Below are positions 415-19,292 of a stretch of DNA of 23,495 nt, piece after piece; within the stretch, counting starts at the first letter, position 1, and every line of letters begins with the position of its first letter. Source of the DNA: a virus; IMG/VR virus record IMGVR_UViG_3300047491_000332, positions 1 through 23,495 of that record. One strand, given 5' to 3'. The notes below the pieces were generated by a model. That model made no database searches, was not told the origin of the DNA, and saw only the letters and a list, made by a program, of their open reading frames with translations. A program made the position numbers and the translations under genes.

Positions 415-1200
415 CTACCCGAAAATGAGTGCTGTAGTAATTGAATCGCCGCTTTCTCCCGGAGGGCCTTGAATGCCTTGTGGACCCTGTGGACCGGTTG
501 CTCCCGTTGCTCCAGCTGGACCTTGTGGTCCGGTATCACCGGTTGCTCCCGTTGCTCCAGCTGGACCTTGTGGTCCGGTATCACCGGTTGCTCCCGTTGC
601 TCCAGCTGGACCTTGTGGTCCGGTATCACCGGTTGCTCCCGTTGCTCCAGCTGGACCTTGAATGCCTTGTGGACCTTGTGGTCCGGTGTCGCCAGTGTCA
701 CCCTTTAGTCCCTGTGGACCTTGAATGCCTTGTGGACCCTGTGGACCGGTATCACCGGTTGCTCCCGTTGCTCCAGCTGGACCGGTTGCTCCGGTGTCGC
801 CCTTTAGTCCCTGTGGACCTTGAATGCCTTGTGGCCCTTGTGGTCCGGTGTCGCCGGTTGCTCCCGCTGGACCGGTTGCTCCGGTGTCACCCTTCGGCCC
901 CTGTGGACCCGTTGCTCCGGTTGCTCCGGCATCACCCTGTGGACCGGTTGCCCCCGTTGCTCCGGTTGGACCCTGTGGACCCGCTGGACCAGTGTCACCC
1001 TGTGGACCCGCCGGTCCGGTTGCTCCGGTTGGACCCTGTGGACCTTGTGGGCCCGGAGCACTGAGAAGGACCCAATCTGCAGCCGTCGATGTGCCTTTAG
1101 ATAAATATTGATCGCCAGTTGTTATATCAACATAATGGTGACCAATTTGCGGGGGTGCAAACGTTGGGGCACCAGCTTTTTTATAAATATGCTTAGCCAT
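415..1200 (-). CDS. Collagen-like Gly-X-Y repeat virion protein (fibre candidate)
   Basis: The protein has 261 residues. I place the start at ATG 1200 ([10 protein letters not shown]) because AGGAG sits 5 bases upstream; the frame stays open further upstream but lacks a comparable site. Residues 1-48 form a small non-collagenous head. Residues about 49-250 are almost uninterrupted Gly-X-Y triplets dominated by [12 protein letters not shown] and GIQ, and a short hydrophobic end (SITTALIFG) follows. Such repeats are known to form trimeric triple helices in phage fibres and bacterial surface proteins, so a rod-like trimer on the virion is the likely structure. DNA here looks visibly more GC-rich than most neighbours, forced by Gly, Pro and Ala codons. 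Part of the repeat is a perfect 45-bp tandem array that could change length in frame. The function of the rod (adsorption, decoration) is inferred. Confidence 0.9.
493..660 (-). repeat. 45-bp in-frame tandem repeats in the collagen-like gene
   Basis: About 3.7 near-perfect copies of a 45-bp unit can be followed by the phrase gctgga at about 515, 560, 605 and 650. Each unit encodes five Gly-X-Y triplets ([15 protein letters not shown]). Since 45 is a multiple of 3, gain or loss of units keeps the frame and changes rod length. Confidence 0.9.
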
Positions 1201-4261: not shown

Positions 4262-5230
4262 TTACTTACTCTTTATATAGCTATCCCAATGAAACTTAGA
4301 CATCTCACTGTGGTGAGCGGGTAAATCAGGGTGGACATGTTGTTTCATATTTGATGCTGAAAGTTCTTTAGCTTTATTAGCATGCATAAAATATGCTTGT
4401 TTATGTTCCTCTGGGGTAAAGGCAGAGTGATAGGCATTTGCTTCATCTCTACCGTGAGTAGACATAATTGGTTTACCAGATTCAGTTGTACCCATTTGAT
4501 AATGTTTTGGTTTACCAGTCATAGCAGGTCCTGGACCTACAACACCATTCTTAACACCGAACATTTCTTTTTCTTTACTTGCTGCCTTAAGATCATCAAG
4601 TGCTTTTTCTAGTTGCTCTAGTTTCTCGTCAAGTTCTGATTTAACCATCATGTTAGGTGTTTTATTGATATGTGTGTTGTAGAAATTGTGAAGTGCTGCT
4701 TTAGCTTTCTCAGCATCTGGACCAAAAAAGTTACCAGTAGCAGTCTTATTTTTATCAGTATGCTCAATGTTAAACGTAGAAGATGGATGCTCAGGTGACG
4801 CCTTGAATTGGCCAGGTTCCTTAACAACAGAACCTGATTTTCCACCTACATGGTATTCCCCCATAACATTCATTGCACTTAACCTGTTGTGCAGATCAGT
4901 GTGAGGATCAACATCTGCGTGCGCGGTATTAGCTGCAAGTCCAGCAGCCGCTAAACCAGCAGCAGCAAGTGTACTCTTAATACCTTTTTCCATATCTTCG
5001 GTATCGTTTTTTGTAAGTGGAACCTTAGGCTGTGCAACCTTAAACTGTGGTTGCTGCGGTTGCTTAATCTTCTTTCTATCTTGTCTAGCTACAACATTAG
5101 ACTCAGAAGTGGTTAGAGGATAATCCTCAGTTGGTTTTCCAGCTTTACCTTCTTCTATCTCTTTGTCAAGGTTTAGTTCTATCTTCTCTATATTCCACTG
5201 TCCATTCTTATTTTTAGTTATCTTTTCCAT
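4262..5230 (-). CDS. Hypothetical protein with Ala-rich segment and His-rich C-terminus, 322 aa
   Basis: Start ATG 5230 (MEKITKNKNG) with GAGGA 8 bases upstream. Residues 1-80 are charged and low in predicted structure. Residues 80-105 (from MEKGIKSTLAAAG to AANTAHA) look like a Sec signal peptide placed internally, with an AHA/D pattern at the end. Residues about 200-225 form a heptad-like helix (ELDEKLEQLEKALDDL). Residues 240-322 are His-rich, with repeated HA and HH pairs (FTPEEHKQAYFMHANKAKEL, HPDLPAHHSEMSKFHW). I recognise no enzyme family. It lies between the transglycosylase-like gene and an acidic coiled-coil gene, so it may be a virion interior or head-associated protein. Confidence 0.75.
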   Translation of the reverse strand: MEKITKNKNGQWNIEKIELNLDKEIEEGKAGKPTEDYPLTTSESNVVARQDRKKIKQPQQPQFKVAQPKVPLTKNDTEDMEKGIKSTLAAAGLAAAGLAANTAHADVDPHTDLHNRLSAMNVMGEYHVGGKSGSVVKEPGQFKASPEHPSSTFNIEHTDKNKTATGNFFGPDAEKAKAALHNFYNTHINKTPNMMVKSELDEKLEQLEKALDDLKAASKEKEMFGVKNGVVGPGPAMTGKPKHYQMGTTESGKPIMSTHGRDEANAYHSAFTPEEHKQAYFMHANKAKELSASNMKQHVHPDLPAHHSEMSKFHWDSYIKSK

Positions 5231-10579: not shown

Positions 10580-10664
10580 TGGTGGCGGGGCCACGAATTG
10601 AACGTGGTTAGTCTTACGACATGGGGTTATGAGCCCCATCAGCTTCCGTTACTTCATCCCCGCG
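10580..10664 (-). tRNA. tRNA with CAU anticodon, initiator-like but with long variable arm
   Basis: The 85-nt cloverleaf includes an encoded CCA (10580-10582). Acceptor CGCGGGG pairs with CCCCGCC except for a C1 x C72 mismatch. T-arm is CCACG-TTCAATT-CGTGG. Anticodon arm is TGGGG-CTCATAA-CCCCA with CAT at 10629-10631. The unpaired 1-72 position and the GGG/CCC anticodon stem next to CTCATAA are hallmarks of bacterial initiator tRNA-fMet. However, the variable region is 14 nt and can form its own stem (GTC-GTAA-GAC), as in class II tRNAs, and the D stem pairs poorly in the normal register. It may be an elongator or initiator Met tRNA, a lysidine-type Ile tRNA or a diverged one. Confidence 0.85.
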
Positions 10665-10670
10665 AGGTTA

Positions 10671-10676
10671 ATTATA
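10671..10676 (-). promoter_or_regulatory. Candidate -10 element for the tRNA (GTATAAT)
   Basis: GTATAAT on the minus strand overlaps the GTA TAA ending of the GIY-YIG gene. Six bases separate it from 10664, the first base of the tRNA, so a start at the usual distance falls exactly on the tRNA 5' end. No -35 is seen. Confidence 0.45.
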
Positions 10677-11385
10677 CCCTTAGCTCATCTTCTATACTAT
10701 CTGTATACTCAAAAATATATCCATAACATTGTTTTCGCTCGCCTTTCAAGCATAGACCAATAATATTTGGTTGAATATTTAGTTCTCTACCACATTCAGT
10801 TCTGTTGACCCAGGTACCTACGAATCTACCTTTTGTCCAATGTCTCTTGCAACCAAGTGCAATGAACACATTAAACGGTTTACACCCCTTGCCTAAGGAT
10901 ATATTTAGACCTGAGCCTTCTTTAAACTTACGTCCAGTGAAAGATTTGGACATCCTCTTTTTAGTCTCATCAGATCTCTTTAAGCCTTTTCCACCTAATG
11001 ATATCTTTTCTTTAATACACTCAGGTAGTTGAACACCAGTTAACTTCTTTGATATCTTTTCTTTCGTATCTTCGGGTCTTGATATTCCTTTATTCCATGG
11101 AGTAAGACCTCTATGTCCACCTAAGCCACCAGAACAAATATTAGCTTCGCAGTCTCCAAAGAATCTGTGCCACATTATTAATTGTTCTTCTCGCTTAAAG
11201 GCATCTTCTTCATTTTCAAAGTAATCCAATATAACAACTTGATATTTATGTTTTTTTACGATACTACACCAATATTGGTTTCTATCGTTTTTACTCCATG
11301 CTCTTTTTTTAGAACCTTTGCCTATATAAAACACAGTTTTAGTATCTAATCTAATATGGGCATAAACATAAAAAAGCTTATCCAT
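10672..11385 (-). CDS. GIY-YIG homing endonuclease with NUMOD3-type repeats
   Basis: The protein has 237 residues, starting at ATG 11385 one base after the stop of the preceding GIY-YIG/kinase gene. The catalytic domain spans residues 4-95: FYVYAH ... FYIGKGSKKRAW (the GIY and YIG strands, with a nearby basic residue), then REEQLIMWHRFFG with Glu67 or Glu68 as metal ligand. Residues 106-150 carry NUMOD3-type DNA-binding repeats (DTKEKISKKLTG, CIKEKIS, ETKKRMSKSFTG). The C-terminus (GTWVNRTECGRELNIQPNIIGLCLKG ... GYIFEY) is a NUMOD/helix-turn-helix-like module. Such enzymes cut cognate alleles and spread by homing. It sits beside a tRNA gene, as known for phage seg genes. It is AT-rich compared with the major capsid gene. 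Confidence 0.9.
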   Translation of the reverse strand: MDKLFYVYAHIRLDTKTVFYIGKGSKKRAWSKNDRNQYWCSIVKKHKYQVVILDYFENEEDAFKREEQLIMWHRFFGDCEANICSGGLGGHRGLTPWNKGISRPEDTKEKISKKLTGVQLPECIKEKISLGGKGLKRSDETKKRMSKSFTGRKFKEGSGLNISLGKGCKPFNVFIALGCKRHWTKGRFVGTWVNRTECGRELNIQPNIIGLCLKGERKQCYGYIFEYTDSIEDELRV

Positions 11386-11386
11386 T

Positions 11387-12616
11387 TTAAAGCCTTAATT
11401 CATTTAACATATAGGAAAGAACTTCATTCGAAGTGCCTGAGAATACACCATATTTTTCAGAACGCTTGGTTATTTGTTTAATGCGTTTAGTTAAAGAGTC
11501 AGTCCACTCACCACCACGACTAGCAATACGTTGTTTAAGAGTTTCTTCTGACTCTATAATAAATACTGCTTTAATATTAAAAAGATGACCATGGCGTTTT
11601 ATAAATGTCGAAATCTTAAAAGTCGGATCGTAACAAACTGGTAAACCATTCTCACCTGCTTTTTGAAGAAGTTCTAAGTGGTCTTTTTTACTATTACCAT
11701 CAAAGGAGATATATGAACAGTTGGTTAGTTGGTTACAGACCCATGACTTGCCGGCACCTGGGACGCCACAGATTAGATAGAGAGTTGGGAGAGTGGTTAC
11801 TACTGTAGTTTCTTTTTCTTCTAAGTATTTAAAAATTCTACCACCTGCTGTTTTATATCTACCCTTTAAAACCTTAATTATAGTAGACCCATGACAATTA
11901 TTTTTTTCTGCTGCTTCTTTAATGGATTGATATATCACTCCATTATCGTCTATTACTGGACGTTGTTGTTTTTTGTAAACTTCATCCATTTTAGCTTTAA
12001 CTTCAGGTTTAGCTTGAGCTTTTTTAACTTGTTCAGAAATATAACGTTTATGTTCTTCTGTTGTAAAAGCTTTTGCTTTTTCAGAAGCAATAATGTGAGC
12101 TTCTTCTGATGCCCAACGTTTATTTAAGACATCTGTAATCTTATTATAATACTCAGGGTCTTGCCATCTTTCTTTCATATGTTGAGACATTTCTTGTCTA
12201 AGTTCTTCTGATTTCCATCTCTCTTTATGAGAAATAGACATTCGTTCTTTTGTCACCCCTGGAAGACTAGTTCCTAATTTAACTTCTGACATTTTTTGTT
12301 TTGTTTCTTCATGAAATTCATAACCACTTGTTCCTCCTGTCATGAGGTTGTAACCATTTGGAAATATAGAATTATATTCTATGATATACTTGCGTTCTAA
12401 CTTATCTAATTCTTCTTTTGTTGTACACATAGCTAAAACAGAAAATGTAAAATTCTCCTTACCATATTTATTTATGGCTAATTTTATTAGTGGTTGGTAT
12501 TTTATATTTTTCTTTAGAGAACAATGGGCTTGCCATCTTCGCTCTATTCTCTTTTGAGAAGTCTGCCCCACATAACATTTACCGTTTAAATTGTTTTTTA
12601 TTAAATAAACGTACAT
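11387..12616 (-). CDS. GIY-YIG endonuclease fused to a P-loop kinase, 409 aa
   Basis: Start ATG 12616 (MYVYLIKNNL) with AAGGAG upstream, inside a hairpin loop. Residues 1-95 are a GIY-YIG nuclease (VYLIKN ... CYVGQTS, arginine at 23-27, Glu74 in DKLERKYIIEY). Residues 102-215 carry NUMOD3-like repeats (ETKQKMSE, KERMSISHKERW, RWQDPEYYNKI). Residues 218-266 match NUMOD1 (VIYQSIKEAAEKNN, STIIKVLKGRYKTAGG). Residues 277-409 are a P-loop kinase: ICGVPGAGKSWV is the Walker A (284-291), with VFIIESEETLKQRIASRGG as a lid or base-sensing helix. Similar stand-alone kinases of about 130-160 residues occur in phages. No ATG, GTG or TTG start with an SD precedes the kinase in frame, so the fusion appears real. 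Its substrate is unknown. Confidence 0.88.
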   Translation of the reverse strand: MYVYLIKNNLNGKCYVGQTSQKRIERRWQAHCSLKKNIKYQPLIKLAINKYGKENFTFSVLAMCTTKEELDKLERKYIIEYNSIFPNGYNLMTGGTSGYEFHEETKQKMSEVKLGTSLPGVTKERMSISHKERWKSEELRQEMSQHMKERWQDPEYYNKITDVLNKRWASEEAHIIASEKAKAFTTEEHKRYISEQVKKAQAKPEVKAKMDEVYKKQQRPVIDDNGVIYQSIKEAAEKNNCHGSTIIKVLKGRYKTAGGRIFKYLEEKETTVVTTLPTLYLICGVPGAGKSWVCNQLTNCSYISFDGNSKKDHLELLQKAGENGLPVCYDPTFKISTFIKRHGHLFNIKAVFIIESEETLKQRIASRGGEWTDSLTKRIKQITKRSEKYGVFSGTSNEVLSYMLNELRL

Positions 12617-12641
12617 TGCTTTCTCCTTTAAAGCAATTATA
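12615..12641 (-). promoter_or_regulatory. SD-trapping hairpin with overlapping -10 element (GIY-YIG/kinase gene)
   Basis: On the minus strand ATTGCTTT and AAAGCAAT (plus 12630-12637 and 12615-12622) form a perfect 8-bp stem with the SD in a 7-base loop (AAAGGAG), and the start codon begins in the right arm. TATAAT at 12636-12641 overlaps the left arm. RNA starting near 12629 would lack the left arm and expose the SD. Confidence 0.5.
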
Positions 12642-12681
12642 CCCCATTGTTATTATAGGTAGCTTATCGATGTTTATAAAT

Positions 12682-12708
12682 AAAAAAGGCACCATATAAT
12701 ATGGTGCC
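12682..12708 (-). terminator. Rho-independent terminator after the major capsid gene
   Basis: Minus-strand GGCACCAT-ATTAT-ATGGTGCC is an 8-bp perfect stem (12688-12708) followed by a run of six T (12682-12687). It begins 23 bases after the MCP stop. The plus strand also has a T-run after the stem, so it could work in both directions. It would separate capsid transcripts from the endonuclease/tRNA island. Confidence 0.85.
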
Positions 12709-12730
12709 CTTTTTAAGTAACTTATTGATA

Positions 12731-14182
12731 TTACTTACCAACGTTCCTCATAACTGCATTAAACTTAGGAGCATAAACAAACAGTGCACCATACATGAGA
12801 AGGAGGAATTCGAGAGCAGTTGTTACTACCGCGAGATTCATCTTAGCAAGAGGAGCAAGTTGTTTGAACTTCATGGTTTCAGCGGACATATCCAAGAGGA
12901 ATGCTTCGCCAAGACCGGGCTTCTTCCATCCAACATCCTTATAAGCAGCCAAGCCAAACTTATAGTTACCGATGAACTGAGCTGTAGAAGCAGCAGCACC
13001 GCTAGCAGAACGATACACCTTCATGTACTTCGTTCCAGTAGGGATACCACCAATAGTAAGGGTCACTTCTTGTCCAGCGGTCACAGTTACAGCAGCAGCA
13101 GTCACAACTGGAGCAGATTCACCAAAGTCATTGACAAAGGTAACCGCATATTTAAAGTCACCAGCAGGGAGAGCAGAACCTGAACCAGCAGCAGCAGCAG
13201 TTACAGAAGCACCAGCGATGTTGGGGCAGTTTGCGTTCACGGCAGCAGGGCGAACCTGTTGACGAGGACGGAGGAAGAGGTTGGGTTTAAGATCAACAAC
13301 ACCAGCGGTGGTTGTAACCTTCGATACATCGTAACCCACAGTCTGACCAGAGAGACCTGGGTCAGAACGGAACTGAGGATAGAATTGACGAACGAAAGCA
13401 GAGATCGCAATGGGTTCAGCGTGGAACTGCGAAGGAGCACCGAAGTTTTCCAAGCAGCGAACAGCCATTTCTTCAACATCGTCCTGCACGAACGTTGCGC
13501 CAGCGAGGTCTTTAAAGATCGAATTGGATTCAGAGCCCCATCCTTCAAAATCAAGAGCACGGAACTGACTGTCAGAGTCGCCTTTGAGAAGCTGCTGGAG
13601 CAAGCCGCTCATTGCGAGTGAGTTAACTGGAAGGTCACCAATTGCACCGGTCTGTTTACCAAGTGCGTCCACGAAGTGTGCATGGCCCCAATAGAGCTCG
13701 CGTTCGACGTTCTTCAAGAGATCCATCGTTCCTTCTTTTGCCTGCTGAGCAACAACGTCACCAACAGTTGTGCGAACAAGAGTCATCTGGTGTGAAACCT
13801 TACGACGCTTGCTGAAGAACGCGATCCGTTGACCGTCGCGTACGTATGTTGAATCTTCTTCCTGCCCTGCTCCGCCTTCACCGATATAGGGAGACGAATC
13901 AGAACCGTAACCAACCAAACGGTTGTACTGTTCGAAGAGGTTGTAAGCCTTATCTATAGTGACTGCTGGCCAGAATTTGAGATTCTTCATGTCGAAGGTA
14001 ACGACTTTGAGTGTCGATTCCAACGATTCAGTCTGAATCACACCACCATACACGAGGTCGGTCGGGCGACCGGCTCCACCGTATCCAGCTGTAATAGCTT
14101 TGTTAAGGGCTTCGACCTCAGCCTGGGAGACAATCCCCTGCTCAAGACCTTGCATAATTTGGTTCATTGCGTCGGTATACAT
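12731..14182 (-). CDS. Major capsid protein, HK97 fold, with Ig/FN3-like insertion
   Basis: The protein has 483 residues; start ATG 14182 (MYTDAMNQIM) with GGAGGAG 8 bases upstream, a strong site. It builds the icosahedral shell. The N-terminal part (TAGYGGAG ... QTESLESTLKVVTFDMKNLKFWPAV) and the following YNRLVGYG, FFSKRRKVSHQMTLV, and YWGHAHFVDA match the pattern I associate with SPO1/A511-type capsid proteins. Residues about 320-400 look like an inserted Ig or fibronectin-III-like domain (GDFKYAVTFVNDFGESAP, then GTKYMKVYRSASG), probably exposed on the shell surface. The order protease, small protein, scaffold, MCP is classic. Residues 28-59 reappear in the protease. The DNA looks more GC-rich than the surrounding genes, consistent with codon selection for high expression. 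A terminator follows. Confidence 0.92.
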   Translation of the reverse strand: MYTDAMNQIMQGLEQGIVSQAEVEALNKAITAGYGGAGRPTDLVYGGVIQTESLESTLKVVTFDMKNLKFWPAVTIDKAYNLFEQYNRLVGYGSDSSPYIGEGGAGQEEDSTYVRDGQRIAFFSKRRKVSHQMTLVRTTVGDVVAQQAKEGTMDLLKNVERELYWGHAHFVDALGKQTGAIGDLPVNSLAMSGLLQQLLKGDSDSQFRALDFEGWGSESNSIFKDLAGATFVQDDVEEMAVRCLENFGAPSQFHAEPIAISAFVRQFYPQFRSDPGLSGQTVGYDVSKVTTTAGVVDLKPNLFLRPRQQVRPAAVNANCPNIAGASVTAAAAGSGSALPAGDFKYAVTFVNDFGESAPVVTAAAVTVTAGQEVTLTIGGIPTGTKYMKVYRSASGAAASTAQFIGNYKFGLAAYKDVGWKKPGLGEAFLLDMSAETMKFKQLAPLAKMNLAVVTTALEFLLLMYGALFVYAPKFNAVMRNVGK

Positions 14183-14197
14183 GGGTTTATCTCCTCC

Positions 14198-14842
14198 TTA
14201 TTTAATACCGTATTTAGTTGCAATTTCTTCAAGATCCGACAAGCCGCCGAGTTCCGCACGGAACACATCTTCAGAGGCCACCGGTTTTCCAGACTTCTTC
14301 AAAGTAACGAGTTCATCGAGAACCTTTGATTTAGTGAGAGGTTGTGACTCTTCACTCTTAGCCAAGGGTTGAATCGATTTAAAAGTAGATCCGCGAGCAG
14401 GAACTGGAGAATCAGCGAGCTTTTTCACAAGCGACGTGATTTCTTCAAGCCGAGCTTCGATAGGTTGAATACGAGCGTCAATGGACTTTTTAATTTCCTC
14501 TTTCTCCTCGAGAACCCCCTTCTTCATTGCGTCGCGTTTAGCACAAGCTGCTTTAAATGCTTCTTCTGCCTTAGCGCATTCTTGTTCGGCCTTTTCCATT
14601 TCGTCTTCTTCGTCTTCTTTTTCCTCTTCTTTATCTTCTGCCTTTTCAGCTTTTTCCTCTTCCTTTTCCTCTACCTTCTCTTCATCTTTCTCTTCGTCTT
14701 CCTTCTTAGCCACCATCTCACCGTTGGCTTTGTTGTCGCCAAGTTCGATCTCTTCAGCATCAAATCGACCTTTCTTCAAGGTTTCGATTTCCGCTAGAGT
14801 CTCGTCGATGAGCTCAGTAAGGCTTTTAACCAAATCGCTCAT
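14198..14842 (-). CDS. Capsid scaffold candidate, highly charged coiled coil, 214 aa
   Basis: The frame is open to 14884, but ATG 14842 (MSDLVKSLTEL) has AGGAGG 7 bases upstream and is chosen. Residues 1-25 form a helix. Residues about 30-80 are almost only Glu, Lys and Asp (runs such as EEKDEEKVEEKEEEK), residues 80-145 form a long coiled coil (ECAKAEEAFKAACAKRDAMKKG, IDARIQPIEARLEEITSLVKKL), and residues 150-214 end in short helices with a basic/hydrophobic tail (EEIATKYGIK). Such charged helical proteins placed directly before the major capsid gene typically serve as scaffold, assembling the procapsid and being removed by the protease. No sequence-specific scaffold family is recognised; identification rests on composition and position. 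Confidence 0.65.
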   Translation of the reverse strand: MSDLVKSLTELIDETLAEIETLKKGRFDAEEIELGDNKANGEMVAKKEDEEKDEEKVEEKEEEKAEKAEDKEEEKEDEEDEMEKAEQECAKAEEAFKAACAKRDAMKKGVLEEKEEIKKSIDARIQPIEARLEEITSLVKKLADSPVPARGSTFKSIQPLAKSEESQPLTKSKVLDELVTLKKSGKPVASEDVFRAELGGLSDLEEIATKYGIK

Positions 14843-14867
14843 TTTGAATCCTCCTAAAAGAGATAGA

Positions 14868-15209
14868 TTACTGACCCATGCCAATCAAATCTGCGTGACC
14901 AGGAATAATAACTCCGTGAGTAACGAGATTAAGACTATTAGCAAAACGAGCACACACCGCAAGAAGCGTAAACTCGTCGTTTGTGTTGATAGTACCGGTT
15001 AGTTTAATCACGTTAGGATTAGCTACGCCAATACCAATGAAAGGAGATGCAGAACCATCAACGCCACCCATGGGTTTCAGGATTTCTGGATCTTCCAAGG
15101 TTACAACAACACTACCGACAGTAATGTCAGCAGCACCACGCACCACAACCACGCCCATCTGCTCAAGGTTGCGTTGCATCTTATCCAAAATAAACTTCTC
15201 GTTCGCCAT
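14868..15209 (-). CDS. Small head protein, 113 aa (decoration or head-associated)
   Basis: ATG 15209 (MANEKFILDKMQ) is chosen over the upstream ATG 15242 because AAGGAG stands 7 bases before it. A short N-terminal helix is followed by beta-like sequence (VVVVRGAADITVGSVVVTLEDPEIL, NVIKLTGTINTNDEFTLLAV) and Gly-rich turns. The size and location between protease and scaffold fit a small head-decoration or internal capsid protein. No catalytic residues are seen. It is preceded by one of the longest non-coding leaders in the window, so a promoter for the scaffold and capsid genes is likely there. Confidence 0.7.
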   Translation of the reverse strand: MANEKFILDKMQRNLEQMGVVVVRGAADITVGSVVVTLEDPEILKPMGGVDGSASPFIGIGVANPNVIKLTGTINTNDEFTLLAVCARFANSLNLVTHGVIIPGHADLIGMGQ

Positions 15210-15388
15210 GTCTCTTCTCCTTCTAGTTAAATTGATAGACACGTAGATTAACTCTATCAGAGTTCACTAGTTAAACACAAGCGTTGATTTTACTACAGTT
15301 TTAACTTGTGCCGCTAGTTACCCCAACAGCTATGGTTATACCTACTTTACTTATTATGTTTACTTTAGAGATTTGGTGGGATTTTTAG
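15210..15388 (-). promoter_or_regulatory. Leader before the head genes with GTATAAC element and repeats
   Basis: The spacer between protease and small head gene holds a GTATAAC element (TATAAC at 15335-15340, minus strand), three copies of TAACTAG (two as TTTAACTAG), and an imperfect stem built from ACTAG...CACAAG and CTTGTG...CTAGT. A smaller stem, AACTC-TGATA-GAGTT, lies at 15250-15264. No -35 and no ORF of note are seen. It probably drives the small head protein, scaffold and MCP genes, but the exact start is unknown. Confidence 0.4.
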
Positions 15389-16243
15389 TTACTCTTTAGT
15401 AAAGAACTTAGCCAACGTATCAAATGGGTATGCTTTACTACAATGACGACATCTTACTTGATACCTCATATAGATGTTACTTTTACCACAACTTGGACAC
15501 TCTATCTCTCTATTTTTAAGACCACTATCTAGTGCTTCTGTTTGAAGAACTTGTCCACCTGTTTTATCTGTAGGTGAACCACCACCGAATCCAGCTGTTA
15601 ATGCTTTTGCTAAATCTTTTATCTTCTCTACGTTAGAGCGAATTTTAGTTTCAGATAAAACATCTGCAACCTCAATAAACGATGGGACATCGTCTCTAGC
15701 GAAAGGAACAAGTGATTTTATAAGTGCTTCGTCGGCTGCTGGATTTAAAGATTTTTTTAAATTAAGACCTTCGACTAGTGTTGCGTTGTTAGCTGGAACA
15801 AACGTAAGAGCTACACCCTTAAGTTTAGTCCTCTTTAATAGAGATTCATCTTTTTCACCGCGCTCAACTATGCCACCTTCTACAGAGGCCTTTAACTTAA
15901 GTGGAGAGTCATCTTTATGTTGGTGTCTTAGGATTGCTGCTGTTGCTTTAGCGGAGCGATGATCGCCATCGTCATCGTACAGTTTTCCCTTGACATAAAT
16001 ATATGGGGCTTTCACTTTATTCCAAAAATAAGTTTGACGCTCATCTGAGCAGTCTTCTGGTCCAAAGATTTTCTTAGCAAAAGTAATGCGCCCTAAGACA
16101 TCTGGCAACTTATTAGAGTGATTATCGTTAAGGTAACCGCGACCCGCTTCAAGCTCAGAAATATCGCATCCCTTAACGTCAAGTATTTCACCTTGAACAT
16201 CACGAAGTTGACTACCAGCTATCATATCTATTTCTGTAGACAT
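15389..16243 (-). CDS. Prohead maturation protease with MCP-like segment and C-terminal zinc ribbon
   Basis: The frame opens at 16261, but ATG 16243 (MSTEIDMIAG) has GAGGAG 7 bases upstream, made of the last codons of the HNH gene. Residues 14-160 fit the herpesvirus/HK97-type serine protease fold: LNDNHSNKLPDVLGRI holds candidate catalytic His42, LKLKASVEGG holds candidate Ser120, and LKGVALTFVPANNATLVE is the usual last strand region. It would cleave scaffold and MCP N-termini during head maturation. Residues 213-243 (KALTAGFGGG ... QTEALDSGLK) match MCP residues 28-59. Residues 249-268 form a C4 zinc ribbon (CPSC ... CRHC). Both additions lie beyond the protease domain. The position two genes before the scaffold supports the call; catalytic residues are inferred from family patterns. 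Confidence 0.8.
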   Translation of the reverse strand: MSTEIDMIAGSQLRDVQGEILDVKGCDISELEAGRGYLNDNHSNKLPDVLGRITFAKKIFGPEDCSDERQTYFWNKVKAPYIYVKGKLYDDDGDHRSAKATAAILRHQHKDDSPLKLKASVEGGIVERGEKDESLLKRTKLKGVALTFVPANNATLVEGLNLKKSLNPAADEALIKSLVPFARDDVPSFIEVADVLSETKIRSNVEKIKDLAKALTAGFGGGSPTDKTGGQVLQTEALDSGLKNREIECPSCGKSNIYMRYQVRCRHCSKAYPFDTLAKFFTKE

Positions 16244-16247
16244 TATA

Positions 16248-16829
16248 TTACTCCTCTTCAAATTCTATTGTATCAGGAGTCCACTTTCCGCTTTTTGATC
16301 TATTCTCTTGAAACCACAATGGTTGTAAATTAGTGTAATGATTCGCATCTTTTAAACTTTGACTGTTATTCCAATCAAATGCTGCTAATGGTTTTACATG
16401 ATCTATTTCCCATCCATTTTTTCCATAGTTGTCCCATGACATTCCAGGTTGAAACTTTGACTCTAAGTATTTAATAAGTTCATCTTTAGAGCATCCTAGT
16501 GCTTCTTCTATGTGTTTAGCTTGCGTTTTATTCATTCCTCTCTCTTTTAAAAACATCTTAAATCTATAAGAAATATTTCTAACTATATGATACTCTTTAG
16601 GTTGAGAATATCTCCATTTATTTTGTTGAGCTGTAACCTTATCTCTATTCTTCTTTCCCCATTCTCTTTGATATTCAGCAAACTCTTCATTATGTTCCTT
16701 ATGCCAAGAAGCAATACGTTTATTGTTACACTCCTTACATGACGAGTATAAACCATCTTTTTTCTTTTTATCTTTAATAAATTCTGTTATATCTTTAGTC
16801 TTGTGACACTTTGAGCATTCTTTTTGCAT
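16248..16829 (-). CDS. HNH homing endonuclease with N-terminal zinc finger
   Basis: ATG 16829 (MQKECSKCHK) is chosen with GAGG 5 bases upstream; the frame extends two codons further to a GTG. Residues 5-34 form a C4 zinc finger (C5, C8, C31, C34), typical of phage HNH proteins. A basic helical linker follows. Residues 108-128 read EEALGCSKDELIKYLESKF, the usual helix before the core, then SWDNYGKNGWEIDHVKPL (D143, H144), N167 in TNLQPLW and N176. It is inserted directly upstream of the protease and its last codons form the protease SD. Its own start region lies in an inverted repeat containing a TATAAT element. AT-rich compared with the capsid gene. Confidence 0.92.
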   Translation of the reverse strand: MQKECSKCHKTKDITEFIKDKKKKDGLYSSCKECNNKRIASWHKEHNEEFAEYQREWGKKNRDKVTAQQNKWRYSQPKEYHIVRNISYRFKMFLKERGMNKTQAKHIEEALGCSKDELIKYLESKFQPGMSWDNYGKNGWEIDHVKPLAAFDWNNSQSLKDANHYTNLQPLWFQENRSKSGKWTPDTIEFEEE

Positions 16830-16865
16830 AACCACCTCGTTTTAAGACGATTATACTGTGGTTAT
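16828..16865 (-). promoter_or_regulatory. SD-trapping hairpin with internal -10 element (HNH gene)
   Basis: Minus strand ATAACCAC and GTGGTTAT form a perfect 8-bp stem (16858-16865 with 16828-16835), with an inner TCGT/ACGA stem. GAGG and the ATG lie in or beside the right arm. TATAAT at 16850-16855 sits in the loop; RNA starting near 16843 would lose the left arm and free the SD. Confidence 0.55.
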
Positions 16866-16869
16866 CATC

Positions 16870-17157
16870 TCACCAAAAAATGCGGGTAGGTATAGTTTTT
16901 CCGTGAATTTTGAATAAACCTTGACCAGTTTGAGCTCTCTGAATATAAGAGGCCTCTAACCTTTTTTCTATAGATTCTTCTGGTTCACCACCCTGTAGTG
17001 CAGATAAAAAATCATCCGCACTGAAACCTAAACCCTCTTCTAGCTGGTCTTGGTCTTCGGTGTCACTATCTGAAATGGATTGTTCTTGATCGTCGTCTGC
17101 GATAGCTTCGCTTAACTTACGAATTGCCTCTAATTCATTCGCAGTATATCGTTTCAT
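16870..17157 (-). CDS. Hypothetical acidic protein, 95 aa
   Basis: ATG 17157 (MKRYTANELE) is preferred to the TTG two codons upstream because AGGAG lies 6 bases before it. Residues 5-20 are a helix, residues 21-45 are very acidic (DDDQEQSISDSDTEDQDQLEEG), and the C-terminal part is mixed (SIEKRLEASYIQRAQ, KIHGKTIPTRIFW). It overlaps the end of the upstream HTH gene by 23 bases, so the two are probably coupled. A GTATAAT sequence lies at 17181-17187 within that gene. No family is recognised. Confidence 0.7.
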   Translation of the reverse strand: MKRYTANELEAIRKLSEAIADDDQEQSISDSDTEDQDQLEEGLGFSADDFLSALQGGEPEESIEKRLEASYIQRAQTGQGLFKIHGKTIPTRIFW

Positions 17158-17551
17158 CTTCAACTCCTAACCTATCGTCAATTATACGACCGCCATCTAG
17201 TTCCTTCTTTATTTCTACTACGAATTTAGCTGACTGAAGTTTCTCAGTTGCAGCGTCGGCGGTCTTTTTCACTGTATCGACCGATAGATTTAGGAGAGCA
17301 GCTATTTCTGCATCATTTTTAGGGGATTCTGAGAGGAATTTAGCTTCGTACACAAACCAGCAGTAACATGACATCTGGTCTTGTATGGCCCAAGCGCATG
17401 GCGTTGCTGTTTCTTCTTCCTCAGGGGTTGGCTCACGACCTAAAGAGCGCATCCACTTTAGACGCTTAACAGCAAGTGGACACCAGTGATCTGGTAGCGA
17501 CTTGAGTTTACGTGGGCATCTATTTTGAAAGCGCTCTTCTAAATCAGACAC
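17135..17551 (-). CDS. Cys-rich protein with sigma-region-4-like HTH, 138 aa
   Basis: The frame is open from a TTG at 17587; I prefer GTG 17551 (MSDLEERFQN) because GAGG lies 5 bases upstream, overlapping the end of the previous gene. Alternative upstream GTG and TTG starts cannot be excluded. Residues 12-64 hold five cysteines (RCPRK, HWCPLAVKRLKWM, ATPCAWAIQDQMSCYCWF), suggesting a zinc or iron-sulphur site. Residues 79-106 read NDAEIAALLNLSVDTVKKTADAATEKL, a helix-turn-helix of the sigma region 4 type ('EIA..l.iS..TVk'). Such a protein could bind DNA and RNA polymerase. It lies between portal/kinase and head genes. A late transcription factor role is inference. Confidence 0.7.
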   Translation of the reverse strand: MSDLEERFQNRCPRKLKSLPDHWCPLAVKRLKWMRSLGREPTPEEEETATPCAWAIQDQMSCYCWFVYEAKFLSESPKNDAEIAALLNLSVDTVKKTADAATEKLQSAKFVVEIKKELDGGRIIDDRLGVEDETIYCE

Positions 17552-17558
17552 ATAAACC

Positions 17559-18122
17559 TCATTCTGCTGGTTTAACACGGACACCAAGTAGTGTTACTAC
17601 GTGTTTAACCCCACTAAGTTGTACTTCAACAACATCACCGACAGTTTTATTTATCAACCCATCGATCAGTTCTTTACTTCCAGTTTCACTTAAAAGAACC
17701 TTAGATCTAAAAATACCTTTATCTTCTGCTTCGTCTGGAGTCTTTGAGGTTATGATCACTACATCTGAAGCTGATGTCACTGTGTTAGCCTCTTGAAAAC
17801 CATTATCGATGTCGTCTTTTTCCGAGGCCTTAGTCCAATCCTCAAGTTTCATTGAATCCGAAATCTTTGCTACATCTTCTGCGTTTACGTTTAACAATTT
17901 CTGTGTAGCAAGGAAACGGTATTGAAAGTCATTGAACATACCGGTAAGATTTTTTGCCTCTCCACCGAGATTAACTAGGTTGTCCATAAGCTGCTTAAGC
18001 ATAGCCTGATTGATACGCATGGCCATGTTTAAATTCTCAGTTTGCTTTTTAAGTGCCTCTATCTCTTGTTCTAGTGTTTTAACATCTTTGTTTGTGTTTC
18101 TAATTTCTTGCGTAATTTTCAT
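17559..18122 (-). CDS. Coiled-coil protein with small beta C-terminal domain, 187 aa
   Basis: Start ATG 18122 (MKITQEIRNT) with AGGAGG 4 bases upstream. Residues 5-60 form a long coiled coil (DVKTLEQEIEALKKQTENLNMAMRI). Residues 60-115 are mixed helix. Residues 120-182 look like a compact beta domain with FKBP/GreA-like phrasing (SKELIDGLINKTVGDVVEVQLS ... VTLLGV), but the likeness is weak. It overlaps nothing important downstream; the HTH gene starts within a few bases of its stop. No function can be assigned; an assembly chaperone is one possibility. Confidence 0.7.
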   Translation of the reverse strand: MKITQEIRNTNKDVKTLEQEIEALKKQTENLNMAMRINQAMLKQLMDNLVNLGGEAKNLTGMFNDFQYRFLATQKLLNVNAEDVAKISDSMKLEDWTKASEKDDIDNGFQEANTVTSASDVVIITSKTPDEAEDKGIFRSKVLLSETGSKELIDGLINKTVGDVVEVQLSGVKHVVTLLGVRVKPAE

Positions 18123-18134
18123 GTGTCCTCCTAA

Positions 18135-18401
18135 TTATTTATAAAGATCTGTCTTAATTAAACTACCTAAATATGAAATATGTTTTCTTCTATACTCTTT
18201 TACAGGGATATTTTCTGGACGATGTTTAAGGATACAGTCACGAGCAGGTATTGGATTAGTTTTTAATGTTAAACCCTCTACATCTGTCAAGAGTAAATAA
18301 AAAGGTTCCGAATTACACCAAACCTCAACAACCCTCATATCACATTCACCAAGCACATTGATAACTGTCACGATATCACCAACCTTAAAGGTATTTTTCA
18401 C
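18135..18401 (-). CDS. Hypothetical small SH3/KOW-like protein, 88 aa
   Basis: Start GTG 18401 (MKNTFKVGDIVTV) with GGAGG 5 bases upstream. FKVGDIVTVINVLGECDMRVVEVW and FYLLLTDVEGL outline a small beta barrel of the SH3/KOW kind, often found in ribosomal, polymerase-associated and virion proteins. The C-terminal part is basic (KEYRRKHISYLGSLIKTDLYK). It sits 12 bases before the coiled-coil gene and 16 after the kinase gene, as part of one transcription unit. The domain call is from hydrophobic pattern only. Confidence 0.65.
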   Translation of the reverse strand: MKNTFKVGDIVTVINVLGECDMRVVEVWCNSEPFYLLLTDVEGLTLKTNPIPARDCILKHRPENIPVKEYRRKHISYLGSLIKTDLYK

Positions 18402-18417
18402 TTACTCCTCCAGTTCA

Positions 18418-19236
18418 TTACTTTTTCTTGTGGGCCTGTTTGATGAGTGTCTTAAGGAAAAGAATCTCGTCTTCTGAGAATACAGAGGGATTAGGTGTTG
18501 TCATACCTATTAAATTAGAAAGTTCACTGTTTAAAAATGTCCGTATCTTATTCTCAATGACATCGTAAAAGTTACCCTTTTTCTTAATAATCCTGGTTGA
18601 CAAAATATCATTGATGGTGTTAGCCTGTAGGAGGCGTTTCTGTTCTGGTGTTAAATCTGTTTCTACTGCCTTTTTAAGCTCAACAGTCTTAATGTCTTCT
18701 GTTTTTTCAGCCACCTTCTCTTCTATAGAGGGTGCTTCTACCGCCTGTGCTTCGGGTGGTTTCACGTAGTCTAAAAGTGTGTGTTTCACGAAGCTATATT
18801 TATAGACAAGCGTAGCATTGTAAAGTCTACCAGCTTGTATAAACTGAACCTTTGTAAGCGGTTCTTTATTCTGTACACATCGATTCCAGTGTTCTTCTGT
18901 GTTTGGGTCATGCATTAGGACATATTGTGTATCGTTTTGCTGCTCGATTTCCTTAAGAACTTCAAAATCTTCTTCAGATAACTGAGGTGGACGATTGTAA
19001 ACGTGACTCCATATTAATTCACCGTAAGCAGATCTATCCCAAAAAACGTCTTTACCTGTTTTAGAAACGTACAGTTCAATCATCTCGTCTAAATAACTAG
19101 GGCCACTGTAGCCAGGTTGGCTGTACTTCTTATCTGGAGCAGATAAGTGAATGACTTCGTATCCTTGTTGTTTGTATATCTCTGCTACAGTTGACTTGCC
19201 AGAACGGTCTAAACCTTCGCAAATAATCCAAGTCAT
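18418..19236 (-). CDS. Thymidylate/deoxynucleoside kinase-like protein with C-terminal extension, 272 aa
   Basis: Start ATG 19236 (MTWIICEGLD) with GAGG 6 bases upstream. Residues 3-16 (IICEGLDRSGKSTV) are a Walker A of the thymidylate kinase group ('EGxDgsGKsT'). FWDRSAYGELIW at 65-76 carries the DR(S) motif of nucleotide-binding kinases of this group. QYVLMHD is a core strand. After a Pro/Ala/Glu linker (160-192), residues 192-270 add a helical domain (LTPEQKRLLQANTINDIL ... YDVIENKIRTFLNSELSNLIG ... SEDEILFLKTLI), absent from standard kinases. The enzyme would phosphorylate a (deoxy)nucleotide with ATP; substrate is not clear. The gene lies between the portal and small genes. An inverted repeat covers its SD. 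Confidence 0.8.
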   Translation of the reverse strand: MTWIICEGLDRSGKSTVAEIYKQQGYEVIHLSAPDKKYSQPGYSGPSYLDEMIELYVSKTGKDVFWDRSAYGELIWSHVYNRPPQLSEEDFEVLKEIEQQNDTQYVLMHDPNTEEHWNRCVQNKEPLTKVQFIQAGRLYNATLVYKYSFVKHTLLDYVKPPEAQAVEAPSIEEKVAEKTEDIKTVELKKAVETDLTPEQKRLLQANTINDILSTRIIKKKGNFYDVIENKIRTFLNSELSNLIGMTTPNPSVFSEDEILFLKTLIKQAHKKK

Positions 19237-19242
19237 ATTATG

Positions 19243-19292
19243 CCTCGTTTGATTTTATAGATTTACAGGTATTTTATACAAAATCAAACGAG
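19243..19292 (-). promoter_or_regulatory. 13-bp inverted repeat covering the kinase SD, with internal -10 element
   Basis: Minus strand CTCGTTTGATTTT (19280-19292) and AAAATCAAACGAG (19244-19256) pair perfectly across a 23-base loop. The GAG of the kinase SD (GAGG) is in the right arm. GTATAAA (19273-19279) lies in the loop, so RNA starting near 19266 would lack the left arm. No T-run follows, so a terminator is unlikely. Confidence 0.55.

Follow-up and report, generated by a model that had tools for sequence, protein, structure and literature searches.

Three gene starts on the minus strand of the window (the whole 23.5-kb virus fragment that was analysed) are probably translation switches gated by the site at which the RNA begins. 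RNA entering from upstream genes would carry a segment that lies at or just upstream of the -10 box, and pairing of this segment with the SD/AUG region would keep the gene silent. RNA begun at a GTATAAW promoter, six bases past the box, would lack the segment and would be translated. Such read-through RNA is presumed to exist, the stem is expected to block the ribosome, and the purpose may be one of timing or dosage.

The original prediction had placed perfect minus-strand stems of 8, 8 and 13 bp at these starts, each with a GTATAAW either in its loop or in its left arm; the stems are found where expected and the motifs match the sequence. The sites, their promoters and the genes behind them are the following.

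12614..12642, minus strand: site 1, start of the GIY-YIG gene, with stem ATTGCTTT (12637-12630) / AAAGCAAT (12622-12615)
12642-12636, minus strand: site 1 promoter, GTATAAT, predicted +1 at 12629
16827..16865, minus strand: site 2, start of the HNH gene, with stem ATAACCAC (16865-16858) / GTGGTTAT (16835-16828)
16856-16850, minus strand: site 2 promoter, GTATAAT, predicted +1 at 16843; the left arm is upstream of the box
19243..19292, minus strand: site 3, start of the kinase gene, with stem CTCGTTTGATTTT (19292-19280) / AAAATCAAACGAG (19256-19244)
19279-19273, minus strand: site 3 promoter, GTATAAA, predicted +1 at 19266; the left arm is upstream of the box
11387..12616, minus strand: GIY-YIG homing endonuclease fused to P-loop (kinase-like) and NUMOD-like parts; it lies immediately after the capsid gene
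16248..16829, minus strand: HNH / endonuclease VII-like gene (PHROG 1035 endonuclease VII, 1.3e-22)
18418..19236, minus strand: nucleotide (thymidylate-type) kinase (PHROG 761, 7.7e-6)

The GIY-YIG gene matches PF01541 (3.8e-13) and PF22083 (1.9e-7), weakly AAA_18/AAA_33, and also PHROG 314; a Pfam search with the HNH gene gave no match. At site 1 the left arm (12637-12630) occupies positions -8 to -1 and ends exactly at -1. The loop (12629-12623) begins at the predicted +1 and holds the SD, AAAGGAG, and the right arm (12622-12615) closes off the spacer between SD and AUG as well as the AU of the start codon (AUG 12616-12614). At this start the stem is as proposed, and the SD itself sits in the loop. 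The right arm of site 2 (16835-16828) overlaps part of the SD and the AU of ATG 16829, best read as the HNH start in preference to GTG 16835, and that of site 3 (19256-19244) overlaps the SD.

For 26 gene starts of the window, the longest perfect stem with its right arm over the SD-AUG region was compared with that obtained after dinucleotide shuffling of the sequence upstream (n = 400 for the kinase). Only three of the 26 starts reach at least 8 bp, and they are the three predicted ones. The 13-bp kinase stem was reached in 0 of 400 shuffles (p < 0.0025, for one of 26 starts tested). The 8-bp stems at the HNH (p = 0.013) and GIY-YIG (p = 0.048) starts are weak alone, with p values uncorrected for the 26 genes. 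The folding free energies of the three regions have z-scores of -3.64 (kinase), -2.50 (GIY-YIG) and -1.48 (HNH). It is unlikely, though not negligibly so, that chance accounts for these features, in that an SD (AGGAG) often complements the pyrimidine-rich stretch after TATAAT and the stems at the endonuclease sites would be accidental. The two endonuclease p values, taken alone, agree with such an origin, and the length of the kinase stem argues against it, as does the fact that the three stems fall at three of the window's few starts close to a promoter.

The promoter motif was defined in relatives from uncultured contigs, a set of 64 non-redundant loci; these are metagenomic, and gene starts were assigned with a simple script from SD and ORF length. 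In the 64 loci, no other 7-mer in the region 12-60 nt before starts comes near the enrichment of GTATAAT (127 vs 2.7 expected); GTATAAA is enriched in the same region (25 vs 2.2 expected). GTATAAT counts over whole records gave no consistent enrichment over the reversed pattern and are uninformative, so that only placement before starts carries information. No -35 element was seen in 174 aligned GTATAAW sites, and a scan for sigma-70 -10/-35 sites found fewer than in shuffles. Six nucleotides after the box, however, the 174 sites display a +1 signature (T-1 53%, A+1 59%, C+1 2%). The arrangement GTATAAW-N6-ATG, where the ATG opens a frame of 60 codons or more, occurs in 77 cases (relatives L198-L225 plus kinase and protease leaders), against 0-3 for each shorter spacing, 25 at seven nt and 12 at eight nt. 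These genes, which include those for DNA polymerase, dUTPase, portal and protease, look leaderless, with the ATG at the inferred +1, and leaderless mRNAs appear to be numerous in the phage clade. A further landmark is found in the window.

10664..10677, minus strand: GTATAAT (10677-10671), with the predicted +1 at 10664, the first base of a tRNA-Met gene

This tRNA-Met (CAU; 10664-10580, minus strand), found by ARAGORN, begins CGCGGGG and ends CCCCGCCACCA; in our reading its positions 1 and 72 would be mismatched (C1-C72), as they are in initiator tRNAs. Together, the +1 signature, the leaderless spacing and the tRNA 5′ end allow the start point to be deduced with single-base precision. As the start lies six nucleotides after the box, the promoter RNAs of all three sites would be without the whole left arm: starts at 12629, 16843 and 19266 leave out all three arms, in agreement with the proposal that RNA from the TATA element lacks the 5′ arm.

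Predicted folding of the RNAs with and without the left arm supports the switch, as predicted opening of the SD-AUG region rises at all three sites when the arm is removed. For the kinase, predicted opening from SD through AUG goes from ~1e-9 in the long RNA to between 1e-4 and 7e-3 in the promoter RNA; for HNH it goes from 7e-5 to 0.02, and for GIY-YIG from 2.5e-6 to 0.34 with 30 nt of coding sequence included. Extension of the coding part to 60 nt lowers the last value to 6e-4, at which the GIY-YIG promoter RNA would itself be mostly closed, and this dependence on coding length makes site 1 less certain. In the window and in the clade, the SD and/or the start codon are predicted to be paired in long transcripts.

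Further evidence comes from co-evolution of the arms. The original prediction had proposed a comparison of covariation in relatives, and ~150 leaders, non-redundant though not fully independent, do show selection for pairing, confined to the region upstream of +1. In a swap test on 115 non-redundant promoters, the segment upstream of +1 was paired with the SD region of its own gene or of other genes. Duplexes of the left segment with its own SD average -7.66 kcal/mol, a value reached in 0 of 5000 permutations; swapping gives -6.06±0.19 kcal/mol. Perfect stems of at least 8 bp are present in 13 of the 115 leaders, where 2.1 are expected after swapping and about 0.9 at starts without the motif, and SD-covering stems scoring at least 7 number 28 vs 7.6 in swaps. 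Stems of at least 6 bp persist in swapped leaders (25 of 115), which is in keeping with chance complementarity; nevertheless, own segments strongly outdo swapped ones and orthologous ones. By gene, the effect is strong at kinase, g14 and GIY-YIG genes and absent at portal and g23, which have the same promoter. Strong masks are found at only a minority of SD-led promoters.

In the strictest control, the leader segment was swapped among orthologues only. The kinase gave -8.19 with its own segment vs -6.89 (z = -4.5, 0 of 20000; 51 leaders), and g14 gave -12.67 vs -8.85 (z = -8.4, 0 of 20000; 29 leaders). Orthologous swaps of the sequence downstream of +1 gave no signal at kinase or g14, and the controls were flat (portal z = +0.6, protease z = -1.2). 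Complementarity is therefore lineage-specific and limited to the part that would be missing from promoter RNA. The kinase effect becomes smaller when set against shuffles that preserve composition (t = -1.8 for the left segment as a whole, -3.0 for motif and spacer together); in the leader set used for these shuffles the g23 class had zero motif-bearing leaders. A swap scored on base-pair probabilities showed a modest effect (0.47 vs 0.39), since swapped leaders share the pyrimidine bias, and for this reason the duplex and orthologous-swap tests were used. Compensatory changes are present at two pairs in a five-leader g14 cluster, where values as high as those observed arise in 48 of 500 shuffles, and at one pair in another small g14 cluster, counts that are too few alone. 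Sites 1 and 2 are individually marginal; the orthologue comparison draws on kinase and g14, without near leaders of either endonuclease, and the site 1 mask is absent at a GIY-YIG/kinase homologue that is 48% identical (L012).

Other features were seen around these leaders. Three g14 leaders (L164:2969-3001, L166 and L168) have a 12-bp SD-masking stem with a degenerate GTATAAW (GTATGGC, ATATAGC, GTATAGT). Between the capsid gene and site 1 lies a hairpin of its own.

12688..12712, minus strand: terminator-like hairpin, GGCACCATATTATATGGTGCC followed by a T-run; it is symmetric and was also scored on the plus strand

Placed 5′ of site 1, it would lower the amount of read-through RNA available to mask. 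Terminator-like hairpins (CCCGAA...TTCGGG, often followed by Ts) also stand just before many masked g14 promoters (L167-L197), where terminator and mask come in the same order as at site 1.

Inverted repeats that overlap a promoter might instead be DNA operators, for a repressor or for the endonucleases themselves. The dyads do overlap promoters, and there is a precedent in the documented autorepression of I-TevI at its own late promoter (PMC2988022). However, the arms vary between orthologues while complementarity to the own SD is kept, the right arm tracks the SD/AUG, and portal displays no dyad excess despite having the same promoter. Departures from perfect pairing are also more often of the G.U type than of the A.C type. 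With a stem scoring that treats G.T and A.C alike, G.T:A.C is 27:7 in SD-covering stems vs 69:47 over twelve swapped sets (Fisher p = 0.025), and 16:2 in the strongest SD-covering stems (p = 0.016); over all stems, not only SD-covering ones, the count is uninformative (32:23). The excess of G.T over A.C speaks for pairing in the sense RNA and against a DNA palindrome, and an operator origin is considered very unlikely. It is highly improbable, too, that the hairpins are RNA-processing or stability elements, with an RNase III-type cut freeing the start as a longer RNA matures. A cut within the loop would also take off the left arm, and T4 uses mRNA processing elsewhere (PMC3014915), but the loop or left arm is where the promoter motif with its +1 signature lies, and relatives in which the same gene is leaderless do without a stem.

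Of the three genes, the kinase alone is not an endonuclease. The original prediction had offered, as one option, that its hairpin remained after loss of a mobile gene. Mobile genes are indeed frequent near the kinase; yet the order portal-kinase-g23-sig is conserved, with the kinase at that place in nearly all relatives, and GTATAAW is present in nearly every kinase leader of one comparison and in 61 of 77 non-redundant leaders of another. The masks are lineage-specific, and gene and masked promoter are conserved without any mobile gene. In sister L083 the stem survives one G-C to G-U change. A scar is hardly credible in view of this core position and of the gene's own promoter and mask in many leaders, which point to a core gene with a switch. 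In some relatives the kinase is leaderless or nearly so (e.g. L061 and L057, with ATG at +1). A mask overlapping the promoter and a leaderless +1 start may thus be interchangeable devices at orthologous genes. Tentatively, and with somewhat less than even confidence, the principle may extend across the clade, promoter-proximal genes being translated only from RNA of their own promoter by way of either an SD mask or a leaderless start. If so, read-through RNA would be translationally silent for promoter-proximal genes.

The late timing implied by the original prediction is unproven: in relatives, GTATAAW is also found before DNA polymerase III alpha, dUTPase and lysozyme genes, and as it precedes replication genes, lateness cannot be called from sequence. 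One gene of the window encodes a protein that might read the promoter.

17135..17551, minus strand: conserved HTH protein, sigma-70 region 4-like, with four invariant Cys (alignment, weak PDB sigma hits)

A Sigma70_r4 match is found in 12 of 25 members and is sub-threshold in the window member. The protein has only the region 4-like HTH, compared with regions 2 and 4 in sigma factors; as a speculation, it is a candidate promoter-recognition factor.

The clade consists of large uncultured phages and appears distantly SPO1-like by its capsid and portal proteins. Identity to the SPO1 group is 31-33% for the MCP and 28-30% for the portal, a distant relationship without a near cultured relative, and a near-identity search of a cultured phage collection found no relative of the window. 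Relatives L226, L227 and L228 are binned in Saprospiraceae, Cytophagales and Flavobacteriaceae MAGs. Of the clade's long-gene starts, 54% have an SD core (control 5%), while Bacteroidia are reported not to use the SD (PMC9976891); the Bacteroidota host suggested by the MAG bins and the use of SD are therefore in tension. A phage-encoded bS21, considered as an explanation of SD use in the supposed Bacteroidota hosts, was found in 0 of 16 records. Two other observations concern gene content. Relative L198 carries at 4459-4534 a tRNA with a CUA anticodon (tRNA-Pyl according to ARAGORN), a possible amber suppressor, and window positions 415-1200 encode a collagen-like Gly-X-Y repeat protein that is probably tail-associated.

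The masking logic itself is known from T4, where the RBS of e (lysozyme), soc and 49 is hidden in long early RNA and free in RNA from the late promoter (PMC3014915). As in those genes, the stem is predicted here to sequester the SD/AUG in read-through RNA, the promoter is in or beside the 5′ arm, and core phage genes are involved. The differences are that the gp55-dependent late promoter TATAAATA is replaced by GTATAAW, that capsid and portal liken the phages to SPO1 and not to T4, and that the promoter also serves replication genes, with many sister starts being leaderless. The arrangement thus works like the T4 case without the T4 late-promoter element. No description of such a switch in SPO1-like phages was found among the open-access papers searched. 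What appears to be new is the different promoter, the unrelated phage lineage and the use at core genes in many species.

The homing endonuclease hairpins of T4 I-TevI, I-TevII, I-TevIII and segB and of Aeh1 mobE follow the same logic (PMC2988022). The GIY-YIG and HNH starts resemble them in their predicted masking, with the promoter inside the stem-loop; they differ in belonging to free-standing genes, after the capsid gene and near the protease gene, in an unrelated clade. Leaderless mRNAs offer a third comparison, with ATG at the inferred +1 in the 77 cases noted above, and some kinase lineages use this start in place of a masked SD. Unlike plain leaderless mRNAs, it alternates here with SD-masked leaders at one orthologous gene. 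As a leaderless start replaces the kinase mask in some lineages, the purpose of the mask becomes a directly testable question. A start base together with a co-evolving arm constitutes a sequence signature that allows a search for switches of this kind without experiments. The findings indicate that an unrelated, uncultured lineage with another promoter has the T4 means of silencing read-through RNA, which either evolved a second time there or is far older.
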